Of a stretch of 64,000 nucleotides of DNA, positions 6,683 to 34,434 are shown one piece after another (position 1 is the first letter of the stretch; the number at the start of each line of letters is the position of its first letter). The notes under the pieces were generated by a model, which did no database searches, had not been told where the DNA came from, and was given only the letters and a program-made list of their open reading frames with translations. Made by a program: the position numbers and the translations under genes. Origin of the DNA: Natrinema saccharevitans (GTDB taxonomy: Archaea; Halobacteriota; Halobacteria; Halobacteriales; Natrialbaceae); assembly GCF_001953745.1 (NCBI RefSeq), contig NZ_LWLN01000001.1, forward strand, positions 496,001 through 560,000. The letters run 5' to 3'.

Positions 6683-7591
6683 ATGGACGCGATCGCCCTC
6701 CGAGACGTCACCAAACGCTTCGGTGACGTCCGCGCCCTCCGCGGTATCGATATGACAGTCGAGACCGGCGAAGTGTTCGGCTTTCTCGGGCCGAACGGGG
6801 CCGGCAAATCGACGACGATCGACCTCTTGCTTCACTACGCGCGCCCCTCGAGCGGGTCGGTCACGGTACTCGGTCGTGACGTCGCCGAGGAACCGATCGC
6901 CGTCCGGCGACGCGTCGGCGTCCTTCCCGAGGACTTCGCGCCGTTCGAGACGATGACCGGTCGCCAGCACCTCGCGTATGCGATCGAGGCGATGGACGCC
7001 GACGACGATCCGTCGACTCTGCTCGAGCGGGTCGGTCTCGGCGACGACGGCGACCGCGTCGCCGCCGATTACTCGACGGGGATGACCCAGCGACTCGCGC
7101 TCGCGATGGCGCTGGTCGGCGAGCCCGACCTGCTGGTCCTCGACGAGCCGTCGACCGGGCTCGATCCCCACGGCGTCCGCCGAATGCGCGAGATCGTCAG
7201 GGCGGAGCGCGACCGCGGCGCGACCGTCTTCTTCTCGAGTCACATTCTCGGGCAGGTCGAGGCGGTCGCCGATCGCGTCGCGATCCTCCGTTCGGGGACC
7301 CTCGTCGCCGTCGACACGATCGACGGACTCCGTGAGGCCGTCGGTGTCGATACCGAACTCCGCGTCGAACTGGCCGCCGAACCGGCCGCGATCGCACCCG
7401 CCATCGAGTCGGTCGACGGGGTCGCGGCGGTCACCGTAAGCGACGGCGCGTTGCGAATCGATTGCAGCGCCGACGCGAAGCTCCGAGTCCTAGACGAGAT
7501 TCGGGCCGCCGGCGGAACGATCCGCGACTTCTCGAGCAGCGAGGCGTCGCTCGAAGACCTGTTCGTCACCTACACGGAGGGATCGGCGTGA
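6683..7591 (+). CDS. ABC-2 type transporter ATP-binding protein
   Basis: A 302-residue ABC ATPase. The Walker A is GPNGAGKST (about residues 37-45), the signature region is YSTGMTQRLALAMAL, the Walker B is LLVLDEPSTGLDP, and the H-loop is SSHI. A roughly 80-residue C-terminal extension, typical of CcmA/NatA-type subunits, ends SLEDLFVTYTEG. It energises the membrane protein encoded next, whose GTG overlaps this gene's TGA (GTGA). The pair forms a two-gene operon. The exported substrate is unknown. A TATA-like ATATACTTTG lies 25-30 nt upstream of the start. Confidence 0.93.
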   Translation: MDAIALRDVTKRFGDVRALRGIDMTVETGEVFGFLGPNGAGKSTTIDLLLHYARPSSGSVTVLGRDVAEEPIAVRRRVGVLPEDFAPFETMTGRQHLAYAIEAMDADDDPSTLLERVGLGDDGDRVAADYSTGMTQRLALAMALVGEPDLLVLDEPSTGLDPHGVRRMREIVRAERDRGATVFFSSHILGQVEAVADRVAILRSGTLVAVDTIDGLREAVGVDTELRVELAAEPAAIAPAIESVDGVAAVTVSDGALRIDCSADAKLRVLDEIRAAGGTIRDFSSSEASLEDLFVTYTEGSA

Positions 7592-8385
7592 ACTGGCGAC
7601 TGATCGCTCGGAAGGAGATCGGCGATGCGGTTCGAAACCGACAGTTACCCGCGATCGCCGGCACGTTCGCGCTGGTCTATGCCGTCGTCGCGGTGCTTCA
7701 TCTCAGACGAGTCGAACGGGGGTTCGTCGCTCCCGTCGACCTCGTCGACCGGTTCGCGCTTCCCGGTATGCTGCTCGTCCCGGTGACCGCGCTGTTGCTC
7801 GCCGCCGGTGCGATCGTCAGGCGGCGCTCGAACGGACAACTGACGCTCCTCCTCGGGCTCCCACACGATCGACGCGATATCGTCGTCGGCACGTACGTCG
7901 GCCGGTACGCGGTCTTTCTCGCGTCCCTCGTTACAGGAGTACTCGCCGGCGTGGCCGTCGTCGTCGCCGCCGGGCACACGGTTCCGGTCGGTGCCGTCCT
8001 CGCGTACGCCCTCGCGAGCGCCGGGTTGGGACTCGCGTATCTCGCCGTCGCGATCGGGATCTCGGCGACGGTGCGGACGCAGACGTGGGCATCGTTCGCC
8101 GTCTTCGGGGCGTTGCTCTGTTTCCTGTTCGCGTGGCGGTTCGTTCCCGACGGTCTGACCTACGTCGCGGCCGGCTTCGAGGAGCCGGCGACGCGACCGT
8201 GGTGGGCGTCGTACGTCGGTGCGTGTTCCCCCAGCATCGCCTACGAACGGCTGCTTGACGCCGTGATCGGCTCCGGCTCGGACACCGACCGGTCGCTGGT
8301 CCGGTTCAGTGCCGCGGTCCTGCTGGGCTGGGCCGTTCTCGCCCCCGCCGTCGGCTACCGGCGGTTCGCGAGGACCGACCTCTAG
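7588..8385 (+). CDS. ABC-2 type transporter permease
   Basis: A 265-residue integral membrane protein starting at GTG 7588, MNWRLIARKEIGDAVRNRQ, the usual cytoplasmic amphipathic start of ABC-2 permeases. About six membrane helices follow (for example PAIAGTFALVYAVVAVL, PGMLLVPVTALLLAAGA, GAVLAYALASAGLGLAYL, and a final AAVLLGWAVLAPAVG). A long extracytoplasmic loop lies near residues 190-235. It overlaps the ATPase stop codon, so the two are translationally coupled. Its stop overlaps that of the convergent zinc-ribbon gene. Confidence 0.88.
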   Translation: MNWRLIARKEIGDAVRNRQLPAIAGTFALVYAVVAVLHLRRVERGFVAPVDLVDRFALPGMLLVPVTALLLAAGAIVRRRSNGQLTLLLGLPHDRRDIVVGTYVGRYAVFLASLVTGVLAGVAVVVAAGHTVPVGAVLAYALASAGLGLAYLAVAIGISATVRTQTWASFAVFGALLCFLFAWRFVPDGLTYVAAGFEEPATRPWWASYVGACSPSIAYERLLDAVIGSGSDTDRSLVRFSAAVLLGWAVLAPAVGYRRFARTDL

Positions 8386-23125: not shown

Positions 23126-23176
23126 CGGCGGCCGTCCCACGGCCGCGCGACCGTCCCGTTCCAACGAATATATGTT

Positions 23177-23190
23177 TTAGGCTCACCTAA
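23177..23190. promoter_or_regulatory. Iron-box-like operator 1
   Basis: TTAGG-CTCA-CCTAA ends 9 nt before the ATG at 23200, just downstream of a TATATG element. It matches the DtxR/IdeR/SirR-type palindrome and the four other sites in this island. Confidence 0.8.
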
Positions 23191-23199
23191 TCCTTCTCC

Positions 23200-23718
23200 A
23201 TGGAACTGACGAGGCGAGACGCGGTCGCCGCGCTGTCGGCACTCGGCCTCGGGGGGACGCTGGCAGGCTGTGTCGCCCCGCCCGGCTCGGAGCCGATCGA
23301 CGTCGAGGGGCTCCGCGAAACGCTGGTCGCGACCGCCGAGGTCGTCTACCCCAGCGAGGTGTCCGGGATCGAACCGTTCGTCGCGGCCTTCCTCGAGGGA
23401 CGGCTCGGGGACCGGGACCACGTCGCGGGGCTCGAGGGAGCGGTCGCGGAACTGGACGAGAACGCGAACGTGTGGTTCGACGCGGAGTTCGCGGCGCTGT
23501 CGGCCGCCGACCGCGAGCAGGTCCTGCGGAACGTGGGGGCCGACGACGCCGAGGAGAACCCGTCGGGGACGGCGAGCGAACGGGTCCGGTACTACGTCGT
23601 CAACGACCTCCTGCTGGCGCTGTACGCCTCGCCGACCGGCGGCGAACTGGTCGGCCTCGAGAACCCGCAGGGCCACCCGGGCGGGATCGGGACCTATCAG
23701 CGGGGGCCGAACGCGTGA
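23200..23718 (+). CDS. Tat-exported gluconate 2-dehydrogenase subunit 3-like lipoprotein
   Basis: A 172-residue small subunit of a membrane-associated GMC dehydrogenase. The N-terminus MELTRRDAVAALSALGLGGTLAGC combines a twin-arginine motif with a lipobox (Cys about 24). The helical body (VVYPSEVSGIEPFVAAFLEGRL, FAALSAADREQVL, RYYVVNDLLLALYASPTGGEL, GHPGGIGTYQRGP) fits the gluconate 2-dehydrogenase subunit 3 family, which folds with and escorts the FAD subunit through the Tat pathway. Its TGA overlaps the GTG of the FAD subunit. Operator 1 lies directly upstream, so expression is probably repressed in iron-replete cells. Confidence 0.88.
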   Translation: MELTRRDAVAALSALGLGGTLAGCVAPPGSEPIDVEGLRETLVATAEVVYPSEVSGIEPFVAAFLEGRLGDRDHVAGLEGAVAELDENANVWFDAEFAALSAADREQVLRNVGADDAEENPSGTASERVRYYVVNDLLLALYASPTGGELVGLENPQGHPGGIGTYQRGPNA

Positions 23719-25352
23719 GCTGGGAGCGGCCGCCGGCCGGTTCGGCGGCACCGGCCGCCGATACGGACGCCGATCGAACACCCGTCCCCGATGCCGACGT
23801 CTGCGTCATCGGCGCTGGCCCCGCAGGCGGGATCGTCGCAGACCGCCTCGCGGAGGCCGGCCGCGAGGTCGTGATCCTCGAGGCCGGGCCGCGGTTCGAT
23901 CCCGACGATCGGCTCGCTCGTCAAGAGCGCGCGATCCGGCCCGCCTACGACCGCCCGGACGTCTGGGACGGCGATCCGGAGCGGGATGCCTACGAATCCT
24001 CCGGGGAGCGGTTCTACCCGCTGAACCACGCTCGCGCTCGCGGGGTCGGCGGCTCGACGCTGCACTGGCAGGGGATGGTGATGCGGCTCCACGAGGACGA
24101 CTTCGACTCCGAGAGCGTCCGCGGCGTCGGGGCCGACTGGCCGATCGACTACGCGGACCTCCGTCCCTACTACGCCGCGGCCGAGCGGGAACTGGGCGTG
24201 GCAGGGGCCGACGACAACCCGTTCGCCCCGCCGCGGGAGCGGCCCCATCCGATGCCGGCCTTCCCGCCGTCCTACAGCGATTCCCTGTTCGCCGAAGCCT
24301 GCGACGAACTCGAGATCGCGATGCACTCGGTGCCCAACGCGCGCAACTCGGAGGCCTACGACGATCGGAGCGCCTGCGTCGGCTACGGCACCTGTCAGCC
24401 GGTCTGTCCCTCGGGCGCGAAGTACGACGCGACCGTCCACGTCGAGCGCGCCGAGCGAAGGGGCGCGACCGTCATCGACCGCGCGCCGGTCCAGCGACTC
24501 GAACACGGCCCCGACGCGATCGAGGCGGCCGTCTACGCGACGCCGGACGGCCAGCGCCACCGCCAGTCGGCCGACGCCTTCGTGATCGCCTGCGGCGGCG
24601 TCGAGACGCCCCGCTTGCTCTTGCTCTCGGAATCGAGTCACTTCCCCGACGGGCTGGCCAACTCGAGCGGGCTCGTCGGCCGGTACTTCATGGACCACCT
24701 CTTCGCGGGCACCGGCGGCGTCCTCGAGGAACCCACCCGCCAGAACCACGTCGGCTTCCTGACCAGCGAGTCCCACCAGTTCTACGACGAGGCCGACGCC
24801 GAGCAGGCCCCCTTCAAAATCGAGTTCTTCAACTACGACGGCCCCTCGCCGGTCGGGATGGCGCTGACCGGCGACGACTGGGGCGACGACCTGCTCGAGC
24901 GGCTCCGCTCGGACTACGGCACCCACATCGGGATGGGCGGACTCGTCGAGCAACTCCCCCGCGAGGACAGCTACGTCGGCCTCGACCCCTCGACGACCGA
25001 CGATCACGGCAACCCGGTGCCGGACGTCCACTGGACCGTCGGCGACCGCGCGCTCGAGACGATCGAGCGCGTCAACGAGATCCAGGAGGAGATCCTCGCG
25101 GAACTCGGCGCCGAGATCACCTGGCAGGTCGGCCCCGAGGGAACGGGGCCGGCCTATCATCACATGGGGACGACCCGGATGGGTGACGATCCCGACGAGA
25201 GCGTCGTCGGACCCGATCTGCGAACCCACGATCTCGAGAACTGCTGGATCGCCTCGAGCAGCGTCTTCCCGACTGGCGGGGCGATGAACCCGACGCTGAC
25301 GATCGCGGCGCTGGCCCTGAAGGCCGCCGACCACGTCCTCGAGTGGTTGTAA
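23715..25352 (+). CDS. GMC-family FAD dehydrogenase, large subunit
   Basis: A 545-residue GMC oxidoreductase starting at GTG 23715, translationally coupled to the subunit-3 gene. The FAD-binding GAGPAGGIVADRLAEAG is near residue 32, GVGGSTLHWQGM near 110, and the C-terminal FAD block HHMGTTRMG with MNPTLTIAALALKAADHVLE closes the fold. Cys221, Cys227 and Cys231 (C-x5-C-x3-C) occupy the region that binds a 3Fe-4S cluster in bacterial FAD-glucose dehydrogenases. It lacks its own signal and probably exits with the Tat subunit. It would oxidise a sugar, sugar acid or alcohol; no cytochrome c subunit is encoded next to it. Confidence 0.88.
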   Translation: MSWERPPAGSAAPAADTDADRTPVPDADVCVIGAGPAGGIVADRLAEAGREVVILEAGPRFDPDDRLARQERAIRPAYDRPDVWDGDPERDAYESSGERFYPLNHARARGVGGSTLHWQGMVMRLHEDDFDSESVRGVGADWPIDYADLRPYYAAAERELGVAGADDNPFAPPRERPHPMPAFPPSYSDSLFAEACDELEIAMHSVPNARNSEAYDDRSACVGYGTCQPVCPSGAKYDATVHVERAERRGATVIDRAPVQRLEHGPDAIEAAVYATPDGQRHRQSADAFVIACGGVETPRLLLLSESSHFPDGLANSSGLVGRYFMDHLFAGTGGVLEEPTRQNHVGFLTSESHQFYDEADAEQAPFKIEFFNYDGPSPVGMALTGDDWGDDLLERLRSDYGTHIGMGGLVEQLPREDSYVGLDPSTTDDHGNPVPDVHWTVGDRALETIERVNEIQEEILAELGAEITWQVGPEGTGPAYHHMGTTRMGDDPDESVVGPDLRTHDLENCWIASSSVFPTGGAMNPTLTIAALALKAADHVLEWL

Positions 25353-25370
25353 CTGTCGGATTGCCCTATT

Positions 25371-25384
25371 TTAGGCAAACCTAA
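25371..25384. promoter_or_regulatory. Iron-box-like operator 2
   Basis: TTAGG-CAAA-CCTAA lies just upstream of the TATA-like ATAAATAC (25389-25396), which is 29 nt before the ATG at 25418. The placement would block TFB/TBP binding. Confidence 0.82.
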
Positions 25385-25417
25385 AAGCATAAATACGGCG
25401 CGCAGAGAGTACCGGCA

Positions 25418-26164
25418 ATGAGTAGTGGGGCCCAGCCCGCGACGACCGATGATTCGGACGAGGAGTACACCTTCGAGGACGTCAGCGTCGTCATGGGAAC
25501 GTACAACGAGGAGGAAGCGATCGGGAAAGTACTGACCGACATCGACGAGGTCACCGACGGGACGGCCGAGATCGTCTGCGTCGACGGCTCGTCGGACCGC
25601 ACCCCCGAGATCGCCCGCGACCACGGCGCGACGGTCATCGAGCAGGAGCCACAGGGGTACGGCGTCGCCGTGCGCGCAGCGATCCTCGAGCCCGACCGGC
25701 CGATCGTCGTCACGACCGACTGCGACGACACCTATCCGATGGAGCAGCTCCCGGAGTTTCTCGCACTGATCAACGACGGCTACGACGTCGTCAGCGGCGA
25801 CCGGCTCTATCACGGCGCGGACGCGATGCCGGCACTCAACCGCCTCGGCAACCACGCCTTCGCCGCGGTCGCGAGCCTCCTCATGGGCACCCGCGTCCAC
25901 GACACCACGACCGGCATGCGGGCCTACCGGCGCGACGTCGTCGAGGACATCGAGTGGACGGAAAACACCGGCCTCTCGGCGGAACTGCTGCTCCGCCCCC
26001 TGATGCGCGGCTACGACGTCCGTGAACACCCGATCGAGTACCGCGAACGCGCCGGCCAGACGAAGCTCGATCCGTTCAAAGGCGGGGCCGAGATCGCCCG
26101 CTCGATCGTCAAAGTTCCCCTCGAGGAGCGACTGCGAGAACTTCCGCACCGGCCGACGCAGTAG
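25418..26164 (+). CDS. Family 2 glycosyltransferase, polyprenyl-phosphate sugar synthase type
   Basis: A 248-residue GT2 enzyme. The GT-A pattern is clear: VSVVMGTYNEEEAIGKVL, EIVCVDGSSDRTPEIAR, the second aspartate motif IVVTTDCDDTYP, and VSGDRLYHG. It has no C-terminal membrane helices, which resembles the soluble dolichol-phosphate mannose/glucose synthases (AglJ/Dpm1-like). These transfer a sugar from a nucleotide donor to dolichol phosphate. Its promoter carries operator 2. It could supply the lipid-linked sugar used by the membrane glycosyltransferase encoded convergently at 26183-28204. Confidence 0.88.
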   Translation: MSSGAQPATTDDSDEEYTFEDVSVVMGTYNEEEAIGKVLTDIDEVTDGTAEIVCVDGSSDRTPEIARDHGATVIEQEPQGYGVAVRAAILEPDRPIVVTTDCDDTYPMEQLPEFLALINDGYDVVSGDRLYHGADAMPALNRLGNHAFAAVASLLMGTRVHDTTTGMRAYRRDVVEDIEWTENTGLSAELLLRPLMRGYDVREHPIEYRERAGQTKLDPFKGGAEIARSIVKVPLEERLRELPHRPTQ

Positions 26165-26182
26165 TCGACGCGGCTTCGTTTC

Positions 26183-28204
26183 TTAACCCAGTCCGTCCCG
26201 ATCGGGCGTCGCGAGGTCGGTTCTGACGAACGTCCCGTCGGGCGCGCTCTCGGGGAGGTACGCTGCCTCGCCGCCACAGTCGCGGATCCCGCTGCATCGC
26301 TCGACCCGGGGTGTCAGCGCCTCTACCGTCTCGTCGTCTCCCCGCACCGGCAACTCGAGCCGGTAGCTGAAGCTGTTGCCGGGACCCCGATCGACGAACA
26401 CGGTCAGCGTGACGTCGTCTCGCTCGTCGACGGCGATCGAGTCGGTGGCGTTCCACGCCGCGCCGCGCAACCGGACCTCGCCGTCGGCCACGACCAGCCG
26501 GGTCGCCAGCGGACTCGAGACGTCGTCGGCGACGTAGGTCTCGCTTCCGTCGTCGGTCGTAATCGTCGCGCTGACGCTGCCGGCTGCCTCCGGAACGCCG
26601 ACGGTCGCGTTCAGGGCGACCGTCTCGCCGGCGACCCGCTCGACCCGCTGGAGACGGGCACCCTGTGGCGACCCCACCTGCGGGGCCCAGGTTCCCCGAT
26701 ACGCGAAGCGGTACAGCGAGCGGTCGGGGTACGCGTCGGCCACGTCGAACGGCCGCTCGTCGAGGGCGTAGACGCGGTCCCCGTCGAAGCCGGGATCGTT
26801 GCGAAGCGCCTGGAACGGGTGCGCGAGCCAGTCGCCGTACGGCGTCGGCAGATAGACGACCGCCGGTTCCTCGATCGCCCCGTCCTCGAGCGGATCGTAG
26901 GCCCGATCGTAGGTCTCGGTGACGGCCTCGTTTCGCTCGAGTTTCCCCTCGAGGGTCGTCGCGGTGACGCCGCCGACCGCGAGCGCGCTCACGAGCAACA
27001 CCGCGACGACGGCCGCGCGAGCTCCCTGCGGTGACAGAGAGCGGTCGGCCCGTCGGCGAACGATGTCAAACAACGCCAGCGCGCCGACGGCGGCGAAGGC
27101 CGCGGCCGGAAGCAGGAGGTCGAAGTGATAGTAGGGGCCGTGGGTGGCGATCAGGCCGGTGCCGGCGCGGTCGATGTCGCCGAGGACGTTGAAGTTCCCC
27201 CAGAAGTAGACGTTGCCGACGGTAATCGTGAGCAATTGACCGGCGAGGATCGCCTCGCGTGGCGAGAGGCCCCGGCGGACGACCAGTCCGAGTCCAGCCG
27301 CGGCCAGCGCCGCGCCGAGCAGCCCCCCGACGAGCCACTCCGTGAAAAAGGACCGCAGGACCAACGCGTTGGAGCGCAGCGCCAGCCCGACCGTGTACTC
27401 GATCTCGTGTTCGAGGATCCGCCGCCGACCGAATCCCAGCCCGTCGAGCGGGGCGAACGCCTCGTAGGGAAACACCAGCGGCGAGCCGGTCACGACGGCG
27501 TTGTAGGCCAGCGCGAGCCCGACGCCGACCAGCCCGAACGCCGCCGTCGCGGCCTGTCGGGGGAGCGCCGCCCGGTGGTCCCGCCACAGCGTCCAGCAGG
27601 CGTGGGCGATGAACGGGGCGGCGAACAGGACCGCCGTGTACGGTCGCGCGAAAAAGGCCAGCCCGATCGCCGCGCCGGCAGCGCCCGCGAACCGCAGGTC
27701 CCCCGTCCGGTCGGCCCGGAGGTACGCGTAGGCGAAGGCCAGATTGAGCATCGCCGTCGGCGCGTACGGCAGGAACACCGCCGTCTCGATCAGGAACAGC
27801 GGCGAACACAACACCGCGACGGCGGCGACGAGGCCGGTCCGCCGATCGAATACCTCCCGCACGACCAGCGCCACGAGCGCGGGGATTGCCGCGCCGATCC
27901 CCGCCAGCGCGAGCCGGTAGCCGCCCGCGAGTTCGCCCAGTGCGAAGATCGCCGCGGGGACCGGCGAGTACTTCGGATAGAGCCGCTTGCCGTCCTCGAC
28001 GAAGAACCATGGCCGGAAGACGTCTTCGACCGGCGGTCGGACGAAGAGTTGGCCCTCGAGCAACATCGCCGCCTGCTGGAGATAGACCCCTTCGTCGTGG
28101 TTGAGCGAGTGGTAGGGAAAGGTCCGCGTCGCGAGCAGCCAGACGGTGACGGCGCCGACGAGCGCGACGGCGGCCACGGCGAGCCGCCACGGGCGACGTC
28201 TCAC
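26183..28204 (-). CDS. ArnT/PMT-like polytopic glycosyltransferase with extracytoplasmic C-terminal domain
   Basis: A 673-residue GT-C type membrane protein. The first outer loop carries the hallmark acidic motif SLNHDEGVYLQQ (about residues 34-45), like the D-E catalytic pair of ArnT/PMT/GT83 enzymes. Some ten helices follow up to about residue 430. The last 240 residues form a soluble beta-rich domain with two cysteines (CSGIRDCGG), presumably outside the cell. Such enzymes transfer sugars from polyprenyl-phosphate carriers to lipids or proteins. It lies 37 nt downstream of the iron-permease gene on the same strand and is probably cotranscribed under operator 3. Confidence 0.82.
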   Translation of the reverse strand: MRRRPWRLAVAAVALVGAVTVWLLATRTFPYHSLNHDEGVYLQQAAMLLEGQLFVRPPVEDVFRPWFFVEDGKRLYPKYSPVPAAIFALGELAGGYRLALAGIGAAIPALVALVVREVFDRRTGLVAAVAVLCSPLFLIETAVFLPYAPTAMLNLAFAYAYLRADRTGDLRFAGAAGAAIGLAFFARPYTAVLFAAPFIAHACWTLWRDHRAALPRQAATAAFGLVGVGLALAYNAVVTGSPLVFPYEAFAPLDGLGFGRRRILEHEIEYTVGLALRSNALVLRSFFTEWLVGGLLGAALAAAGLGLVVRRGLSPREAILAGQLLTITVGNVYFWGNFNVLGDIDRAGTGLIATHGPYYHFDLLLPAAAFAAVGALALFDIVRRRADRSLSPQGARAAVVAVLLVSALAVGGVTATTLEGKLERNEAVTETYDRAYDPLEDGAIEEPAVVYLPTPYGDWLAHPFQALRNDPGFDGDRVYALDERPFDVADAYPDRSLYRFAYRGTWAPQVGSPQGARLQRVERVAGETVALNATVGVPEAAGSVSATITTDDGSETYVADDVSSPLATRLVVADGEVRLRGAAWNATDSIAVDERDDVTLTVFVDRGPGNSFSYRLELPVRGDDETVEALTPRVERCSGIRDCGGEAAYLPESAPDGTFVRTDLATPDRDGLG

Positions 28205-28241
28205 GGTACCGGCCCTCGTTGGAACGTCTCACTCACGGATC

Positions 28242-29855
28242 TCACCGCCCTTCCTGTGCGAGTATCACCGCCATCGACAGGCCCGAGATACCGACGAGTA
28301 CGAGCGCCGGCACTGCCGCCTGTCCGTAGAGGCCGGCCTCCTCGACCCGCCAGATGTAGGTCACGAGCGTCTCGAACCCGAGGGGGCGTAGCATCAGCGT
28401 CGCCGGCAACTCTTTCATCGTCGTGAGAAAGACCAGCGCGGCCCCGGCGGCGACGCCCGGCAGGATCAGCGGGAGCGTCACCGACCGGAAGGCGTTCAGT
28501 CGCGATCGACCCAACGTGCGGGCCGCCTCGACCAGCTTCTGGTCGACCTGCAACGTCGAGGTCCGGATCGATCCGATCGCTTGCGGCATGAACCGGACCA
28601 CGTAGGCGAAGACCAGCAGCGGAACGGTCTTGTAGACCGACGGCAACACGTCGAGGCTGAAACTGAGCAACGCGATCGCCAGCACGATCCCGGGCGTCGC
28701 GTAGCCGATGTAGGGGGCCCGGTCTGCCAGCGCCGCCACTCGCGAGTCGGAGGTCGCCGACCCCATCCCGATCGGCAGCGCCACCAGCACCGAGACGACG
28801 GCGGCGAGCAGGGCGACGTAGGCCGAATTGAACCCGTACTCCCAGTCGAAGGTCAGCCGCCCGACCTGGTAGCCGGGACCGCCCGTGTTCAGCCACATCC
28901 AGAAGATGGCGACCGGAAGCACGAGCGCGAGCAGGGCGATCGCGCTCGGCAACAGGAGGGCCACGTATCGCAACGCCCCCAACTCGAGGTCGGCGCTGCC
29001 CCGATCGCCGCCGCTCTCGTACGCGCCCGACTCGTCGACGCCGATCCGCGACTCGATCGCGAGGATGATCGCCGTCACCGTCAGCAGCTGTAGCGAGAGC
29101 AACGCGGCGTAGTCGCGGTCGAAGGCGTTGTATCTGGCGTAGATAAACTGCGTGAACACCTCGACGCGCATGATATTCGGCGTGCCGAAGTCCGCGAGGG
29201 CATACAGCGCGACGAGCAGTGCGCCGGCGGCGATCCCCGGCAAGATCTGCGGCAGGGTGATCCGGCGAAACGCCTCCCAGCGGCCCGCGTTGAGGGTCCG
29301 GGCCGCCTCAACGAGCGAGCCGTCCATCGAGAGCAGGGAGGCTCGCGTGGTCAGGAACACGTACGGATAGGTGTACAGCGTCAACACGAACGCGGCCCCG
29401 GCGAAGCCGTAGACCGACGGGAGGGCGTCGACGCCGAGCGGCTCGAGGAAGCCGACGAGTTCGCCCTGCGGACCGAACGCCGAGACGAACGCGAACGCCC
29501 CGAGGTAGCTCGGGACGGCCAGCGGGAGCGCGATGAGGACGGTCCAGAACCGGGGGAAGGGAATCTCGCCCTGAACCGTCAACACCGCGAGCGGCACGCC
29601 GATGAGGACGCTCGCCCCTGTCACGATCGCGACGAGAGCGACGCTTCGGATCAGCACGTCGATCGTCCGGGAATCGACGGCGAGTTCGAACGCGCGGGTC
29701 CCGAGCCCGGCGGCGTCGATGACCAGCCAGAGCAACGGGAGAACGAGAACGGCTGCGATGGCCGCGGCGAGCAGGACGAGGCCTATTTCGGTCGCGCCGC
29801 TGTCGCTGCCGTCGGCTCGCCCGACCGTCTTCGCGACGCGTTCCCGAACGCTCAT
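28242..29855 (-). CDS. Ferric-type ABC transporter permease (fused two-domain)
   Basis: A 537-residue permease with two tandem binding-protein-dependent transport domains, each of about six helices. The EAA loops are visible as LVEAARTLNAGRWEAFRRITLPQILPG near residue 180 and LVEAARTLGRSRLNAFRSVTLPLILPG near residue 440. This internal duplication is the architecture of FbpB/CysT-type iron(III) and thiamine permeases. The ATG overlaps the TGA of the binding-protein gene (ATGA, 29852-29855). No ATPase gene is present in the island, so the nucleotide-binding subunit must be encoded elsewhere. Confidence 0.92.
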   Translation of the reverse strand: MSVRERVAKTVGRADGSDSGATEIGLVLLAAAIAAVLVLPLLWLVIDAAGLGTRAFELAVDSRTIDVLIRSVALVAIVTGASVLIGVPLAVLTVQGEIPFPRFWTVLIALPLAVPSYLGAFAFVSAFGPQGELVGFLEPLGVDALPSVYGFAGAAFVLTLYTYPYVFLTTRASLLSMDGSLVEAARTLNAGRWEAFRRITLPQILPGIAAGALLVALYALADFGTPNIMRVEVFTQFIYARYNAFDRDYAALLSLQLLTVTAIILAIESRIGVDESGAYESGGDRGSADLELGALRYVALLLPSAIALLALVLPVAIFWMWLNTGGPGYQVGRLTFDWEYGFNSAYVALLAAVVSVLVALPIGMGSATSDSRVAALADRAPYIGYATPGIVLAIALLSFSLDVLPSVYKTVPLLVFAYVVRFMPQAIGSIRTSTLQVDQKLVEAARTLGRSRLNAFRSVTLPLILPGVAAGAALVFLTTMKELPATLMLRPLGFETLVTYIWRVEEAGLYGQAAVPALVLVGISGLSMAVILAQEGR

Positions 29856-31012
29856 CCCGAGACGCCGGCGTCGTCCATCAGCTCGAGGGTCGGCTCGAGA
29901 TCGGCCAGGTCCGCGAGGTCGATGTCCGGCGGGCTCAACTCGTCGATGGTCGGCAGCCCACCGACGGGTTCGACGCCCGCGATCATCGGATAGGCGAAAC
30001 TGATCGTCGCGAAGTACTCTTGGGCCTCGGACGAGAGCAGGTGGCGGACGAAGTTATCGACCAGTTCGCCGCGCTGGGTACCCTGTACCTTCAGCGCGCC
30101 CGCGACGTTGATCAACGCGCCGGCGTCGCCCTCGGTAAAGGCCAGATCGATCGGGGCGTCCGGCCGACTGTTCTTGACCCGCATCGCGTAGTAGTGGTTG
30201 GCGAACCCGGCCGACAGCGAGCCGTTGGCGACCGCCTCGGAGACGGCGTACTCGTTGCTGAAGCGTTCGGTCCCCGCCTCGCTCATGCTACTGAGCCAGT
30301 TGCGGGTCACCTCATCATCGCGGAGCAGCCGCATGGCCGTCACGAACGACTTGAACGCACCGTAGGTCGGTGCCCACCCCATCGTTTGCAGTGCGCCGGT
30401 CTCGGGGAAGTCCTGCACGGTGTTCGGAACGTCTGATTCGCTCAGTTCGTTCGTGTTGTACGGAACCGCGCGGGCACGGCCGGCGACGCCGGCCCACGCG
30501 TTGTCGTCGCCGACGAACTGGCTGTTTCCGACCGCTTCGACGGCGTCGTCAGACAGCGGTTCGTACGCGTCGTTCTCCGCGACGAAGCCGAGCGAACTGG
30601 CGTCGATCGACCAGAACACGTCGGCTTGGGACGCGCCGGAGTCGACCTCCTCGACGATCGTCTGGGCCAGCGAGGACGAGGTATTGTCGGTCGGATGGAC
30701 CTCGAAATCGGGATAGATCTCCTGGAGCATCTCCACGAACTCGTAGTAGATGCCGCCCTCGCCGCCGCCGATGTAGAGCGCGAGGTCCCCCGAGAGGTTC
30801 GGGAGGTCCTCGATGGAGGTCCCGCCCGGCGCCGGTCGCCCCTCGACCAGCGAACCGGATCCGCGGAACTCCGAGAGCGACGGAATCTCCGCGTTCTGTT
30901 CGTCGTCGTCGAAGAAACCGAGACAGCCGGCAAGCGATGCAGCGCCGAACGCGGAGCCGACCTGCAGCGTTCGCCGACGTGAAACCACTCGATTATCCTT
31001 CTCGTCGTTCAT
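29852..31012 (-). CDS. Ferric iron-type ABC substrate-binding lipoprotein
   Basis: A 386-residue exported binding protein. SRRRTLQVGSAFGAASLAGC combines a Tat motif and lipobox (Cys about 30). LALYIGGGEGGIYYEFVEMLQEIYPDFEV and SQADVFWSIDASSLGFV match FbpA/AfuA-like family 1 proteins. The adjacent Tyr274-Tyr275 in FANHYYAMRV correspond to the tyrosine pair that binds Fe3+ in FbpA. This, plus operator 3 and the downstream permease, makes ferric iron the likely ligand. Thiamine- or phosphonate-type relatives cannot be fully excluded. Confidence 0.9.
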   Translation of the reverse strand: MNDEKDNRVVSRRRTLQVGSAFGAASLAGCLGFFDDDEQNAEIPSLSEFRGSGSLVEGRPAPGGTSIEDLPNLSGDLALYIGGGEGGIYYEFVEMLQEIYPDFEVHPTDNTSSSLAQTIVEEVDSGASQADVFWSIDASSLGFVAENDAYEPLSDDAVEAVGNSQFVGDDNAWAGVAGRARAVPYNTNELSESDVPNTVQDFPETGALQTMGWAPTYGAFKSFVTAMRLLRDDEVTRNWLSSMSEAGTERFSNEYAVSEAVANGSLSAGFANHYYAMRVKNSRPDAPIDLAFTEGDAGALINVAGALKVQGTQRGELVDNFVRHLLSSEAQEYFATISFAYPMIAGVEPVGGLPTIDELSPPDIDLADLADLEPTLELMDDAGVSG

Positions 31013-31019
31013 ATTTGGT

Positions 31020-31033
31020 TTAGGTTGACCTAA
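31020..31033. promoter_or_regulatory. Iron-box-like operator 3
   Basis: On the minus strand TTAGG-TCAA-CCTAA lies between the TATA-like TATAAGTTTTT (about 31032-31042) and the ATG at 31012 of the binding-protein gene. Confidence 0.85.
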
Positions 31034-31051
31034 AAACTTATAGCTGACGGT

Positions 31052-32233
31052 TCAGTCGTCAGCGACGACCGGTCCGCGGTCCGTCTCGAGGCCGGTCGCC
31101 GGGCGCAGCGTCGCCAGACAGTCGAGCCAGTCGAGCATGTACTCGCCGACGTGGTTGAAAAAGGCCCCGTTGTTGTAGTCGTCCCAGTCGCCGTCGGCGA
31201 GTTCGCGAGCCATCGCCTCGAAGACCGCGGCGTAGGAGTCGGCGTCGCCGCCGACTTCGTCGATCACGCGCCAGAGGTGTTCGTTCAGCTCGAGGCCCGG
31301 CACCTCGTTGTTCAGGTCGTCGAAGGTGCTGCGGGGGGCCTTGTTGTGTTCACACAGCGGCGCGCCGTTGTAGATCCGCGTGCCCAGCACGTCGCAGGCG
31401 CGCTTGAGGAACACGCCCGACCAGATGTCGTCGAATCGCCCGACGTCCCACTCGTTTTCGTCCATCGGCAGCTGGTAGAACGCCGGGATCACCTCGCGGC
31501 GGAAGGCGAGGTTCATCGAACAGACGGTGAGGTAGCTGTCTCGCGCCGCGACGAAGTCCTCGCCGAAGTCCTCGCCCGAGGTCCGGGTCTGGGCCTGACC
31601 CTCGAGGTCGCCGTCCATCAGGATGCGGACGGCGTCGAGATCGGGGACGTTGGTCCACAGTCCCTGCGAGGCGACGACCTCGCCGCCGTCGATCTCGGTC
31701 GTGTCGGTCTCGACGGTTTCACCCATCGCCGAGTAGGGGTAGCCCCGCGGGTAGAGCCCGTGCTCGTCGGCGTTCTGGTAGAGGACGTTGACCCACTGCT
31801 CGTCGGACGACACTTCCTCGATCTCGCCCTCGAACGCGAGGTTGTCCATGTGCGTGCCGAAGAAGTCCTCGTCCTCGTGGGGCAGCGTGTCGTCGTCGAT
31901 GAAGAAGCCGTAGTCGAACTCGTCGCGGGCCCACATGTACAGCAGACCGAAACTCGTCTCGGCGTGGCTGGCCGCCGGCACGACGTGACCGTACTCGGCG
32001 ACGTCGTTGGCCTCGTACCACTCCTCGCGGCGGCTCCCGTCGAAGACCTCCCCCGAGACGCCCTCTTCCTCGAGCATGGCTTCCATCTCCTCGGTCTCGC
32101 AGAAGTCCTCGGTGACGAGGACGACGTGGAGTCGCTCGAGGTCGAAGCCGTGGTCGCGGGCGTTCGCGAAGTACGAGCGCATGCACTCGTACTCCCGGAT
32201 CGTCGGGACGATGACGCAGATATCCTGACTCAT
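31052..32233 (-). CDS. RGP-like glycosyltransferase (alpha-1,4-glucan-protein synthase family)
   Basis: A 393-residue protein of the reversibly glycosylated polypeptide family. The N-terminal ICVIVPTIREYECM, the metal/nucleotide-binding FDYGFFIDDDTLPHED (near residue 108), the CSMNLAFRREVIPAFYQLPM block and FDDIWSGVFLKRACD are characteristic. Plant members are autoglycosylating UDP-arabinopyranose mutases; archaeal functions are unproven. Presumably it handles a nucleotide-sugar in the cytoplasm. The start at 32233 lies about 14 nt from operator 4, which overlaps the 3' end of the upstream flippase-like gene. Confidence 0.85.
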   Translation of the reverse strand: MSQDICVIVPTIREYECMRSYFANARDHGFDLERLHVVLVTEDFCETEEMEAMLEEEGVSGEVFDGSRREEWYEANDVAEYGHVVPAASHAETSFGLLYMWARDEFDYGFFIDDDTLPHEDEDFFGTHMDNLAFEGEIEEVSSDEQWVNVLYQNADEHGLYPRGYPYSAMGETVETDTTEIDGGEVVASQGLWTNVPDLDAVRILMDGDLEGQAQTRTSGEDFGEDFVAARDSYLTVCSMNLAFRREVIPAFYQLPMDENEWDVGRFDDIWSGVFLKRACDVLGTRIYNGAPLCEHNKAPRSTFDDLNNEVPGLELNEHLWRVIDEVGGDADSYAAVFEAMARELADGDWDDYNNGAFFNHVGEYMLDWLDCLATLRPATGLETDRGPVVADD

Positions 32234-32240
32234 TGCCCGC

Positions 32241-33392
32241 CTATTTTTTAGGCGAGCCTAAAACATTGTCGGTCTCACGCGACGGCTCCGAGGCCGTCGC
32301 GTCCGACACGGAAAGTCCCAGCGCGGCGACCGCGCCGGCGCCGCCGACCAGCGTCACGCCGTTTTTCAGCGCGTGATCGACGATCGCCGCCGCCAGCGCC
32401 GTCCCCGCGCCGACGGGGGTGAGCGCGACGACTAGCGCCGTGAACGCGGCCTCGTAGAGCCCGACGCCGCCCTGGGACAGCGGGAGGACCTTCGCGAGGT
32501 TCCCGACGCTGACCGCCAGCGTTCCGACCGCCAGCAGCGGTCCCAGCGCCAACCCGCTGCCCAGCGCCCCCAGAACCAGCACCGCCGTCAGGACGTCGAG
32601 CGCCCAGATCAGCAGGCTTCCCGCGCCGATCCGCGCCACCGTCGCCGGCTGCCGGGCGACCACCTGGACGTCCCCCGCGAACCCGAGCGCGGCCGCGAGC
32701 GCCCGCTCGAGGCGCGGTCGGCCCGCCGCTCGAGCCCGCAACCGTGCGCCCAGTCCGTGGTCCGCCCGCGCGGCGGTGACGACGACGAACCCGACGCCGA
32801 CCGTCGCCGTACTCACGGCCGCCGCGGCCGCCAGCGCGGTGCGTGCGCCCCCGGCCTCGGCGGCGATCTCGAGCGGGCCGGCCGCGCCGGTGACCGCGAG
32901 CCACGCCGTCGCCAGCCCCGCGAGCGCGGCGATCGTCGCCAGATCGAACACGCGTTCGACGGCCAGCGACGCGAACCCGGCGGTGTAGGGCACGTCCCGT
33001 CTGGTTTCCATCACGTACGCGCGGGCCGCGTCGCCGGCCCGCGCCGGGATCGCGAGGTTCGCGGTCTGGCTGACGAAGACGGCGGCCGTACAGAACGCCG
33101 TCCCGGCCCGCCGCCCCATCGCGGCCAGCACGTCGCCGTACCGCCGTCCGCGGAGGGGCCACGAGACGGCGTAGACGACGACTGCGGCCCCGAGCAGGCG
33201 CGGGTCGGCCGACGAGATCTCCGCGAGAACCGTCCCGACGTCGACGTCCCGGAGGGCGACGAACAGCCCGACCACCACGAGTACCGTGCCCGCGATCGTC
33301 AGCCGACCGCGGGTCAGCGCCGCTGCGATCCCGCCGCTCGCGGCGTCGTCGCCGGACGCGTCCGCTCCCGTTCGCTCGCCCCCGTCGCTCAT
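32241..33392 (-). CDS. Lysylphosphatidylglycerol synthase TM-like (flippase-like) membrane protein
   Basis: A 383-residue protein of the UPF0104/AglD C-terminal/LPG-synthase-TM family, with about eight helices after an acidic N-terminus. Family features include the early SADPRLLGAAVVVYAVSW, TANLAIPARAGDAARAYVM and AKVLPLSQGGVGLYEAAF motifs. Relatives are implicated in flipping or attaching lipid-linked sugars. It has its own operator (5) upstream, while its 3' end contains operator 4 for the next gene. Its context, with a polyprenyl-type GT2 and a GT-C enzyme, suggests a role in lipid-linked glycan translocation. Confidence 0.85.
   Translation of the reverse strand: MSDGGERTGADASGDDAASGGIAAALTRGRLTIAGTVLVVVGLFVALRDVDVGTVLAEISSADPRLLGAAVVVYAVSWPLRGRRYGDVLAAMGRRAGTAFCTAAVFVSQTANLAIPARAGDAARAYVMETRRDVPYTAGFASLAVERVFDLATIAALAGLATAWLAVTGAAGPLEIAAEAGGARTALAAAAAVSTATVGVGFVVVTAARADHGLGARLRARAAGRPRLERALAAALGFAGDVQVVARQPATVARIGAGSLLIWALDVLTAVLVLGALGSGLALGPLLAVGTLAVSVGNLAKVLPLSQGGVGLYEAAFTALVVALTPVGAGTALAAAIVDHALKNGVTLVGGAGAVAALGLSVSDATASEPSRETDNVLGSPKK
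32248..32261. promoter_or_regulatory. Iron-box-like operator 4, inside coding sequence
   Basis: On the minus strand TTAGG-CTCG-CCTAA encodes part of the flippase-like protein's last residues (VLGSPKK) and sits about 15-28 nt before the RGP-like ATG, over its TATA region. Confidence 0.82.
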
Positions 33393-33416
33393 ACCCGATG
33401 CTTCGGACCCAGATAT

Positions 33417-33430
33417 TTAAGCCCACCTAA
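33417..33430. promoter_or_regulatory. Iron-box-like operator 5 (one mismatch)
   Basis: On the minus strand TTAGG-TGGG-CTTAA runs into TTAAATATCT, a TATA element about 26 nt before the ATG at 33392. Confidence 0.75.
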
Positions 33431-33504
33431 AACTGCTCTGGTCGGGCGGGACGCTCTCGCTCGAGCGGGTTTCCGCCGAGGAAGATCACCGCGCTGCTCG
33501 CCGC

Positions 33505-34434
33505 TCAGCGCAGTTCCGAGACGATTTCCCGGGTCGCCCGTCGCACCGCCTCGTCGCTCGAGAGCCGGGGCTCCCAGCCCAGCGCCGAGAGCTTCTCGAT
33601 CGAGAGCCGCATCTTCGGCACGTCGCCGGTCCAGCCGCGGTCGCCGCCGGTGTACTCGAACGCGGGGTCGAGGTCCAGTTCGTCCGCGACGATGGCGGCG
33701 ATCCGGTCGACCGAGGTCGTCGTCCGCGTGCCGAGGTTGTAGGTGTTCATCGCGTCGTCGGCGTTCTCGACGACGTGACACATCGCGTCGAGACAGTCCT
33801 CGATATGGAGGTAAGACTTCTCCTGGCGGCCGTTACCCAAGATGGTCAGCGTCTCGGGGTCGTCCCGTAGCTTCTCGATGAAGTCCGGAATCACCGCCCC
33901 GCGCAGTCGCGGTCCGACCACGTTCGCGAACCGAAAGTTCCAGACCGTCAGATCGTGGCTGTGGGCCCGCGCCGAGAGCAGCCCCTCGTCGGCCAGCTTG
34001 CTCGCCCCGTAGGCGCTGATCGGCTCGAGCGGGGCGTAGTCCTCGGGCGTCGGCCGCGGTGCCTCGCCGTAGACCGTCGAGGAGGAGGTGTAGGCGATCT
34101 CCGTGACCCCCGCGTCGGCCATCGCCTCGAGGAGGGTCCGGGTCATTCGCGTGTTGTCGTCGAACTGACCGTGGGGCCGGTCCGTGTCGACGTGTTTCGA
34201 CGCCGCGAGGTGGAAGACGAGGTCGACGTCGTCGAGCGCTCCCTCGAGCGCGTCGGGCTCGGTGAGGTCGGCCGCGAGGAACTCGGCGTCGTCGGGGACG
34301 CGGTCGCGGTCGCCGTTCGAGCAGTCGTCGACGACCGTGACGGCCGCGCCGTCGGCGAGCAGGCGCTCGGTGAGGTGGGAGCCGATGAAGCCGGCCCCGC
34401 CCGTGACGAGTACGTGTCGACTCGAGATGGACAT
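33505..34434 (-). CDS. NAD-dependent sugar epimerase/dehydratase
   Basis: A 309-residue extended SDR. The Rossmann motif is VLVTGGAGFIGSHL (GxxGxxG, residues about 8-21), FHLAASKHVDTDRP follows, and the catalytic Ser/Thr and Y-x3-K are in TSSSTVYG and ISAYGASKLADE. RFANVVGPRLRGAVIPDFIEKL and KSYLHIEDCLDAM fit UDP-glucose 4-epimerase-like enzymes. It probably makes a nucleotide sugar for the adjacent glycan genes. It has no iron box itself and lies upstream of the flippase-like gene on the same strand with a 112-nt gap. The start at 34434 gives MSISSRHVLVTGG. Confidence 0.9.
   Translation of the reverse strand: MSISSRHVLVTGGAGFIGSHLTERLLADGAAVTVVDDCSNGDRDRVPDDAEFLAADLTEPDALEGALDDVDLVFHLAASKHVDTDRPHGQFDDNTRMTRTLLEAMADAGVTEIAYTSSSTVYGEAPRPTPEDYAPLEPISAYGASKLADEGLLSARAHSHDLTVWNFRFANVVGPRLRGAVIPDFIEKLRDDPETLTILGNGRQEKSYLHIEDCLDAMCHVVENADDAMNTYNLGTRTTTSVDRIAAIVADELDLDPAFEYTGGDRGWTGDVPKMRLSIEKLSALGWEPRLSSDEAVRRATREIVSELR

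Follow-up and report, generated by a model that had tools for sequence, protein, structure and literature searches.

A putative iron-repressed module joining a ferric transporter operon to dolichyl-phosphate-sugar glycosylation genes in Halobacteria

A 64,000-nucleotide window of the Natrinema saccharevitans genome (the whole stretch of DNA analyzed here, main-contig positions 496001-560000; genome size 3.98 Mb) contains a cluster of genes for a ferric ATP-binding cassette (ABC) transporter and for the handling of lipid-linked sugars, accompanied by copies of one palindromic operator. We propose, with moderate confidence, that the cluster belongs to an iron-repressed module in which an FbpABC-type importer is coupled to surface glycosylation through dolichyl-phosphate sugars, probably under a DtxR-family repressor. 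Its operators, regulon, operon structure, co-inheritance and enzyme families were all established by computation.

Genes were called with a small codon-usage caller trained on evident genes, and the calls were checked against Pfam and NCBIfam. An original prediction for this DNA had named a GT2, a GT-C, a permease, a binding protein, an RGP, a flippase-like protein and an epimerase, all of which are present; its gene set was incomplete, as it left out a GMC dehydrogenase pair (23200-25352) with an operator at 23176. The features are as follows, with operators listed without strand (NDP, nucleoside diphosphate; Tat, twin-arginine translocation; FAD, flavin adenine dinucleotide; NAD, nicotinamide adenine dinucleotide):

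23176-23191: operator with one mismatch, for the GMC dehydrogenase pair; TTTAGGCTCACCTAAT, ending 8 bp before the ATG
23200-23718, plus strand: GMC dehydrogenase small subunit, predicted to be Tat-exported and of lipoprotein type; PF13618 Gluconate_2-dh3, 2.8e-8
23715-25352, plus strand: GMC-family FAD oxidoreductase, large subunit; PF05199, 2.4e-22, and PF00732, 2.8e-11
25370-25385: perfect operator, TTTAGG-N4-CCTAAA, for the GT2 gene
25418-26164, plus strand: GT2, putative dolichyl-phosphate hexose transferase; NCBIfam NF041391
26183-28204, minus strand (alternative start possible at 28177): GT-C membrane glycosyltransferase, PMT/ArnT-like, PMT_2 plus C-terminal DUF7846; PF13231, 7.3e-9, and PF25230, 2.5e-50
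28242-29855, minus strand: FbpB-type ferric ABC permease; PF00528, two stretches
29852-31012, minus strand: FbpA-type ferric-binding lipoprotein; profile match to 7w3w, 6.7e-79
31019-31034: perfect operator, TTTAGG-N4-CCTAAA, for the binding protein-permease-GT-C operon
31052-32233, minus strand: RGP, a GT75 protein of NDP-pyranose-mutase type; PF03214, 7.2e-19
32247-32262: perfect operator, TTTAGG-N4-CCTAAA, for RGP, within the last codons of the flippase gene
32241-33392, minus strand: flippase-like membrane protein, UPF0104/LPG_synthase_TM; PF03706, 9.7e-42
33416-33431: operator with one mismatch, for the flippase gene; TTTAAGCCCACCTAAA
33505-34434, minus strand: NAD-dependent sugar epimerase, adjacent in some lineages and outside the regulon; PF01370, 9e-53

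Allowing one mismatch at most, the window has five copies of the motif TTTAGG-N4-CCTAAA where 0.12 would be expected, and none of 100 shuffles attained this number. The whole Natrinema genome holds 17 such sites and none of the reversed control pattern. Three of the five window operators are perfect (25370, 31019 and 32247) and two have one mismatch each (23176 and 33416), and they end 6 to 32 bp upstream of the start codons of five genes, those for the GMC small subunit, GT2, the binding protein, RGP and the flippase. As they overlap or adjoin TATA-like elements, their placement fits a repressor. The GT-C gene, without an operator of its own, starts 37 bp past the permease gene. The bases of the RGP operator and its flanks also encode the C-terminal residues LGSPKK and the stop codon of the flippase (32241-32262).

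Elsewhere in the Natrinema genome the operator lies near a FecCD permease-ATPase pair accompanied by two binding proteins, near another siderophore-type binding protein, near a lone FbpC-type ATPase, and near a DtxR-family regulator adjoining a DpsA-type ferritin. A few sites are near genes without a clear tie to iron (DUF7551/7552 and a methyltransferase), but taken together the sites outside the module mostly mark an iron regulon. From these targets and the DtxR-like form of the motif we infer that the operator is under iron control. At another locus, L116, two operators lie upstream of the gene for a haloarchaeal DUF7552-DUF7551 protein (6948-7871), possibly an iron protein not yet recognized as such. 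Tandem operator pairs exactly 36 bp apart were found in L265, L267 and L270 (1501/1537 in each) and in L116 (6809/6845), with a spacing of 35 bp in L114. They include sites upstream of siderophore-type binding proteins in Haloferax and may allow cooperative binding and graded control; the operators of the glycan module are single.

Conservation was followed in 60 neighborhoods around RGP orthologs, drawn from over 40 genera, which together with the window make 61 loci, compared all against all (one, L068, without gene calls). RGP was present in 60 of these loci, GT-C and the binding protein in 59 each, the permease in 50, GT2 in 46, the ABC ATPase and the GMC small subunit in 35 each, the GMC large subunit in 32, the flippase in 20 and the epimerase in 17. 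In 57 of the 61 neighborhoods GT-C lies immediately downstream of a gene of the binding-protein operon: the ATPase in 32 loci (median gap -1 bp), the permease in six and the binding protein itself in 19 (median gap 44 bp), so that it remains in this operon even where the permease or the ATPase has been relocated. Ten genomes have the GMC small subunit gene directly after GT-C (median gap 9 bp).

Operators precede RGP in 59 of 60 loci, the binding protein in 50 of 59, GT2 in 42 of 46, the flippase in 18 of 20 and the GMC small subunit in 23 of the 24 cases where it is the first gene of its unit, against only one of 119 internal genes of other families. Over all neighborhoods (1.25 Mb), 224 operator sites were counted versus a single site of the reversed control; a chance origin was rejected on these counts and on the shuffles and reversed-pattern control described above. 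The epimerase has an operator in none of its 17 orthologs, in as many genomes, and was discarded as a member of the regulon. The original claim that the cluster lies under the same operators thus held for GT2, the binding-protein operon, RGP and the flippase, each preceded by a site; the epimerase, described there as adjacent, lies outside the regulon.

The operator also follows genes that have left the cluster. It was kept at all 20 GT2 genes located far from the cluster and at 19 of 22 unlinked GMC pairs, two more of which have a site with two mismatches; it was absent from four distant GMC homologs. The ABC ATPase, not present in the window's cluster, was found elsewhere as an ortholog in all 24 tested genomes that lack it in the cluster (close by in G060), with an upstream operator in 23, the locus of the 24th ending at a contig edge; four ATPase paralogs had no operator. 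The idea of a transporter broken by the missing ATPase was rejected on this evidence. The Haloferax genome examined (G078) has only 13 sites, four of them at the dispersed binding-protein operon, RGP, GT2 and GMC (2.297-2.298, 2.388 and 2.704 Mb), GT2 being 90 kb and GMC 400 kb away.

Of 174 Halobacteria genomes, 138 contain RGP and likewise 138 contain GT2, the same ones among those listed, and the other 36 have neither. In the 20 RGP-less genomes listed neither GT-C (at 1e-15) nor GT2 (at 1e-40) was detected, while four control genomes had both; binding-protein homologs are still present in the RGP-less genomes, mostly at 33-38% identity. GMC orthologs were detected in 22 of 23 RGP-containing genomes where GMC does not adjoin the cluster, versus one of 20 genomes without RGP. 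Given this joint occurrence and absence of RGP, GT2, GT-C and GMC, the glycan genes behave as a single unit that is passed on together with the present version of the ferric transporter. The original prediction that glycan genes and ferric transporter belong together was therefore borne out: they form one regulon and one co-inherited module, with shared operators kept at unlinked genes, joint gain and loss, and GT-C held in the binding-protein operon. The prediction would have been refuted had the glycan genes not been conserved with the transporter in other genomes, which is not the case. All 20 listed module-less genomes, of the 36, belong to the window's own family, a sign of losses within it, perhaps among alkaliphiles. 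Occurrence of the module outside Halobacteria was rejected after a survey of 148 genomes of the phylum, where the only find outside the class was a GT2 (57%; G295, L310 9561-10274) with no other module gene within about 9 kb and no operators.

The ferric nature of the transporter, also part of the original prediction, is well supported by sequence comparison. The profile of the binding protein matches 34 PDB sequences of ferric-binding FbpA/HitA proteins (best 7w3w, 6.7e-79), and the NHYYxxR iron site (N272, H273, Y274, Y275 and R278) is invariant in 22 aligned orthologs, as expected for an FbpA-type protein. The FbpA-like protein at this position of the operon comes in two subtypes, one carrying YSGRxE, as bacterial proteins do, and the other YxGGGEGG, as found in the window.

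RGP had been described as an RGP-like glycosyltransferase; its profile match to the mutase MtdL (2.2e-29) and its modeled fold suggest another reading. A model of the Haloferax ortholog (76% identity to the RGP of the window; pLDDT 84) superposes on MtdL with Z 37.3 and a root-mean-square deviation of 2.9 over 357 residues, and the next structure outside GT75 gives Z 14.1. MtdL requires D109, R159, D195, R257 and D260 (PMC9937993), and its D109, D110, D111, R159, D195, S228, R257, D260 and H287 are all matched by invariant residues of RGP. These include D113-D115, R163, D196, R264, D267 and H294, numbered as in the first row of the ortholog alignment, and cover the DDD motif, the autoglycosylated Arg, the catalytic Asp and the His that binds Mn. 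A putative nucleotide-sugar mutase of family GT75 is thus a better reading of RGP than a transferase that builds a polymer. It could instead be a glycosyltransferase or an autoglycosylated primer, with GT2 using an ordinary hexose, given that autoglycosylation of an arginine occurs in GT75, some members of which have no mutase activity (PMC9937993), and that the position of MtdL D87 is His in RGP. We regard this as possible but rather unlikely, since the equivalents of R159, D195, R257, D260 and H287 are invariant and the match to the MtdL fold is full-length. Two genomes (G118:C3:370475-371668 and G085:C1:1566210-1567400) give a split RGP match, with residues 1-328 and 325-380 aligned separately, which resembles a small in-frame insertion.

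As to the product of the presumed mutase, Halobacterium glycolipids contain galactofuranose. The base-contact positions of RGP are mixed with respect to UDP or GDP. As the plant proteins AtRGP2 and OsUAM1 form UDP-galactofuranose besides UDP-arabinofuranose (PMC9937993), galactofuranose would be a fair first guess by analogy.

GT2 scores 413.6 bits against NF041391 (dolichyl-phosphate hexose transferase; curated cutoff 375), and a search with its profile recovers dolichol-phosphate mannose synthase (1e-16) as well as ArnC. The GT-C model (pLDDT 85) is closest to Pmt4 (Z 22.8) and ArnT (Z 22.5), matching oligosaccharyltransferases too, and its first outer loop contains invariant N35, D37 and E38, with a conserved acidic pair. 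This resemblance to protein O-mannosyltransferases and ArnT, together with the position of GT-C directly after a gene of the binding-protein operon even where permease and ATPase are relocated, would suit an enzyme that glycosylates FbpA or other iron lipoproteins, stabilizing or retaining them at the surface by a glycan with no role in iron binding. We judge this unlikely: the conserved linker near the N terminus of the binding protein, a possible acceptor, also occurs in genomes without glycan genes, for which reason it was dropped as a special glycosylation site, and the GMC dehydrogenase would be left unexplained.

The flippase is lineage-specific. It adjoins the cluster in only 20 of the 61 neighborhoods, the window counted, and the original picture of a full logic of making, flipping and transferring a lipid-linked sugar therefore applies to the lineages that have it and not to the others. 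Flippase activity was predicted for the UPF0104 family by Makarova et al. (PMC5898192). The GMC small subunit has a Tat lipoprotein signal, with twin Arg invariant in 22 orthologs, and a gluconate-dehydrogenase small-subunit domain; the large subunit has no export signal at its called start. Joint export of both subunits is known for such dehydrogenases, and with a signal on the small subunit alone it is likely here too.

According to the proposed coupling of importer and glycosylation, scarcity of iron would cause the repressor to release operators that overlap core promoters. RGP would then turn an NDP-pyranose into an NDP-furanose (or supply another nucleotide sugar), and GT2 would load a sugar, possibly the product of RGP, on dolichyl phosphate. 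The lipid-linked sugar would move to the outer face, helped by the UPF0104 protein where present, and GT-C would transfer it to an outside acceptor, which may be a lipoprotein, the S-layer glycan or a glycolipid. Also outside the cell, the Tat-exported GMC dehydrogenase may oxidize a sugar, and the product of the pathway could aid ferric capture by the FbpA lipoprotein and the permease, as a surface ligand or through ferric reduction; alternatively, its benefit would be to remodel the envelope within the same starvation response. The sugar, its acceptor and its benefit for iron uptake are all inferred. The strongest pointer to a direct connection between glycan and iron is the bond that holds GT-C in the operon of the ferric-binding protein.

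That bond also bears on a more general explanation, in which iron starvation elicits envelope remodeling or exopolysaccharide synthesis with no effect on uptake, the transporter and glycan genes being merely co-regulated. Haloarchaeal dolichyl-phosphate sugars are indeed used for an acidic exopolysaccharide, as with AepG (PMC9943897), and the glycan genes are dispersed in some genomes with only the operator in common. The durability of the GT-C/binding-protein operon speaks against it, and no polymerase or long glycosyltransferase cluster recurs beside the module in the 61 neighborhoods, so we consider this explanation improbable. With no polymerase found there, the iron-capturing polymer of the original prediction is a guess. 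An AglB-type oligosaccharyltransferase was likewise not recurrent among the conserved neighbors, not all of which were annotated, AglB elsewhere in the genomes not having been searched. Synthesis of a secreted, sugar-acid-based iron chelator in place of a cell-bound glycan is very improbable, for in spite of the exported dehydrogenase of gluconate-dehydrogenase type in the same regulon, GT-C enzymes use membrane-side acceptors and the regulon's siderophore-type binding proteins already handle other chelators.

Several points weigh against the coupling of importer and glycosylation that we favor. Induction under starvation is itself deduced from the operator and its other targets, and three DtxR-family genes clearly above the family cut-off in the Natrinema genome are all candidates for the regulator. 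Residues D87, Q229, R289 and H292 of MtdL are replaced in RGP by His, Met, Lys and Arg, so its activity may differ, though D87 does not define GT75, as plant members carry Ser there. NF041391 labels GT2 a hexose transferase and is silent on furanose, the placing of GT75 before GT2 is drawn from co-inheritance only, and two thirds of the clusters have no adjacent flippase. Finally, no gene in the main-text table of the Haloferax volcanii iron-starvation proteome could be mapped to the module (PMC11349517). In that study Sailer et al. found the UPF0104 protein HVO_1859 increased 11.6-fold and the GalE-type epimerase HVO_0655 increased 12.7-fold in iron-starved cells, both among the most strongly induced proteins (PMC11349517); a link of these proteins to the module was discarded, as neither could be mapped to it and none of the operators in Haloferax G078 had a UPF0104 gene next to it.

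The data suggest that haloarchaea adapt to a shortage of iron by altering their surface sugars, which ties surface glycosylation to iron supply across a class of archaea and gives archaeal GT75 proteins a predicted role and pathway. RGP, GT2, GT-C and GMC constitute a defined gene set for asking whether a surface sugar serves iron uptake; if it does, cells would have a way of acquiring iron in addition to siderophores and simple ferric transporters. A bolder version is tentative and rather doubtful as a whole: a class-wide iron-starvation system in which GT75, GT2, GT-C and the exported sugar dehydrogenase would build an oxidized furanose surface glycan, acting as a ferric ligand or reductant that feeds the FbpA importer. 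If true, it would mean iron acquisition by a cell-bound glycan instead of a siderophore.

In the open-licence literature, to which the search was confined, no paper describing this gene combination was found, and known systems each share a part of it. The Agl system of Haloferax volcanii (AglD, AglR, AglS) and AepG of Haloarcula likewise combine a GT2-made dolichyl-phosphate sugar, a UPF0104 flippase-like protein and a GT-C acceptor transferase, to which the present module adds the GT75 mutase-type protein, the GMC dehydrogenase and the iron-type operator with a ferric transporter. In the bacterial Arn pathway (ArnC, ArnT, ArnEF) a GT2 also loads polyprenyl phosphate and a GT-C transfers the sugar outside under metal-responsive control, but its sugar is aminoarabinose and it has neither a GT75 nor a ferric ABC transporter. 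Arn induction follows high ferric iron. The FbpABC/HitABC importers share the NxYYxxR binding protein, the FbpB-type permease and the FbpC-type ATPase, whereas here GT-C is built into the operon and the ATPase is relocated in the window's lineage. Archaeal DtxR-family regulons (Idr1/Idr2, SirR, TroR, ferR) also have a palindromic operator and iron uptake targets; the glycan and GMC targets set the present one apart, with the reservation that published target lists may already include some of them. Finally, the GT75 mutases MtdL, Hyg20 and plant UAM/RGP share the full-length fold and catalytic residues of RGP, which differs from them at four active-site positions and in its ties to a dolichyl-phosphate transferase and to iron-type control.

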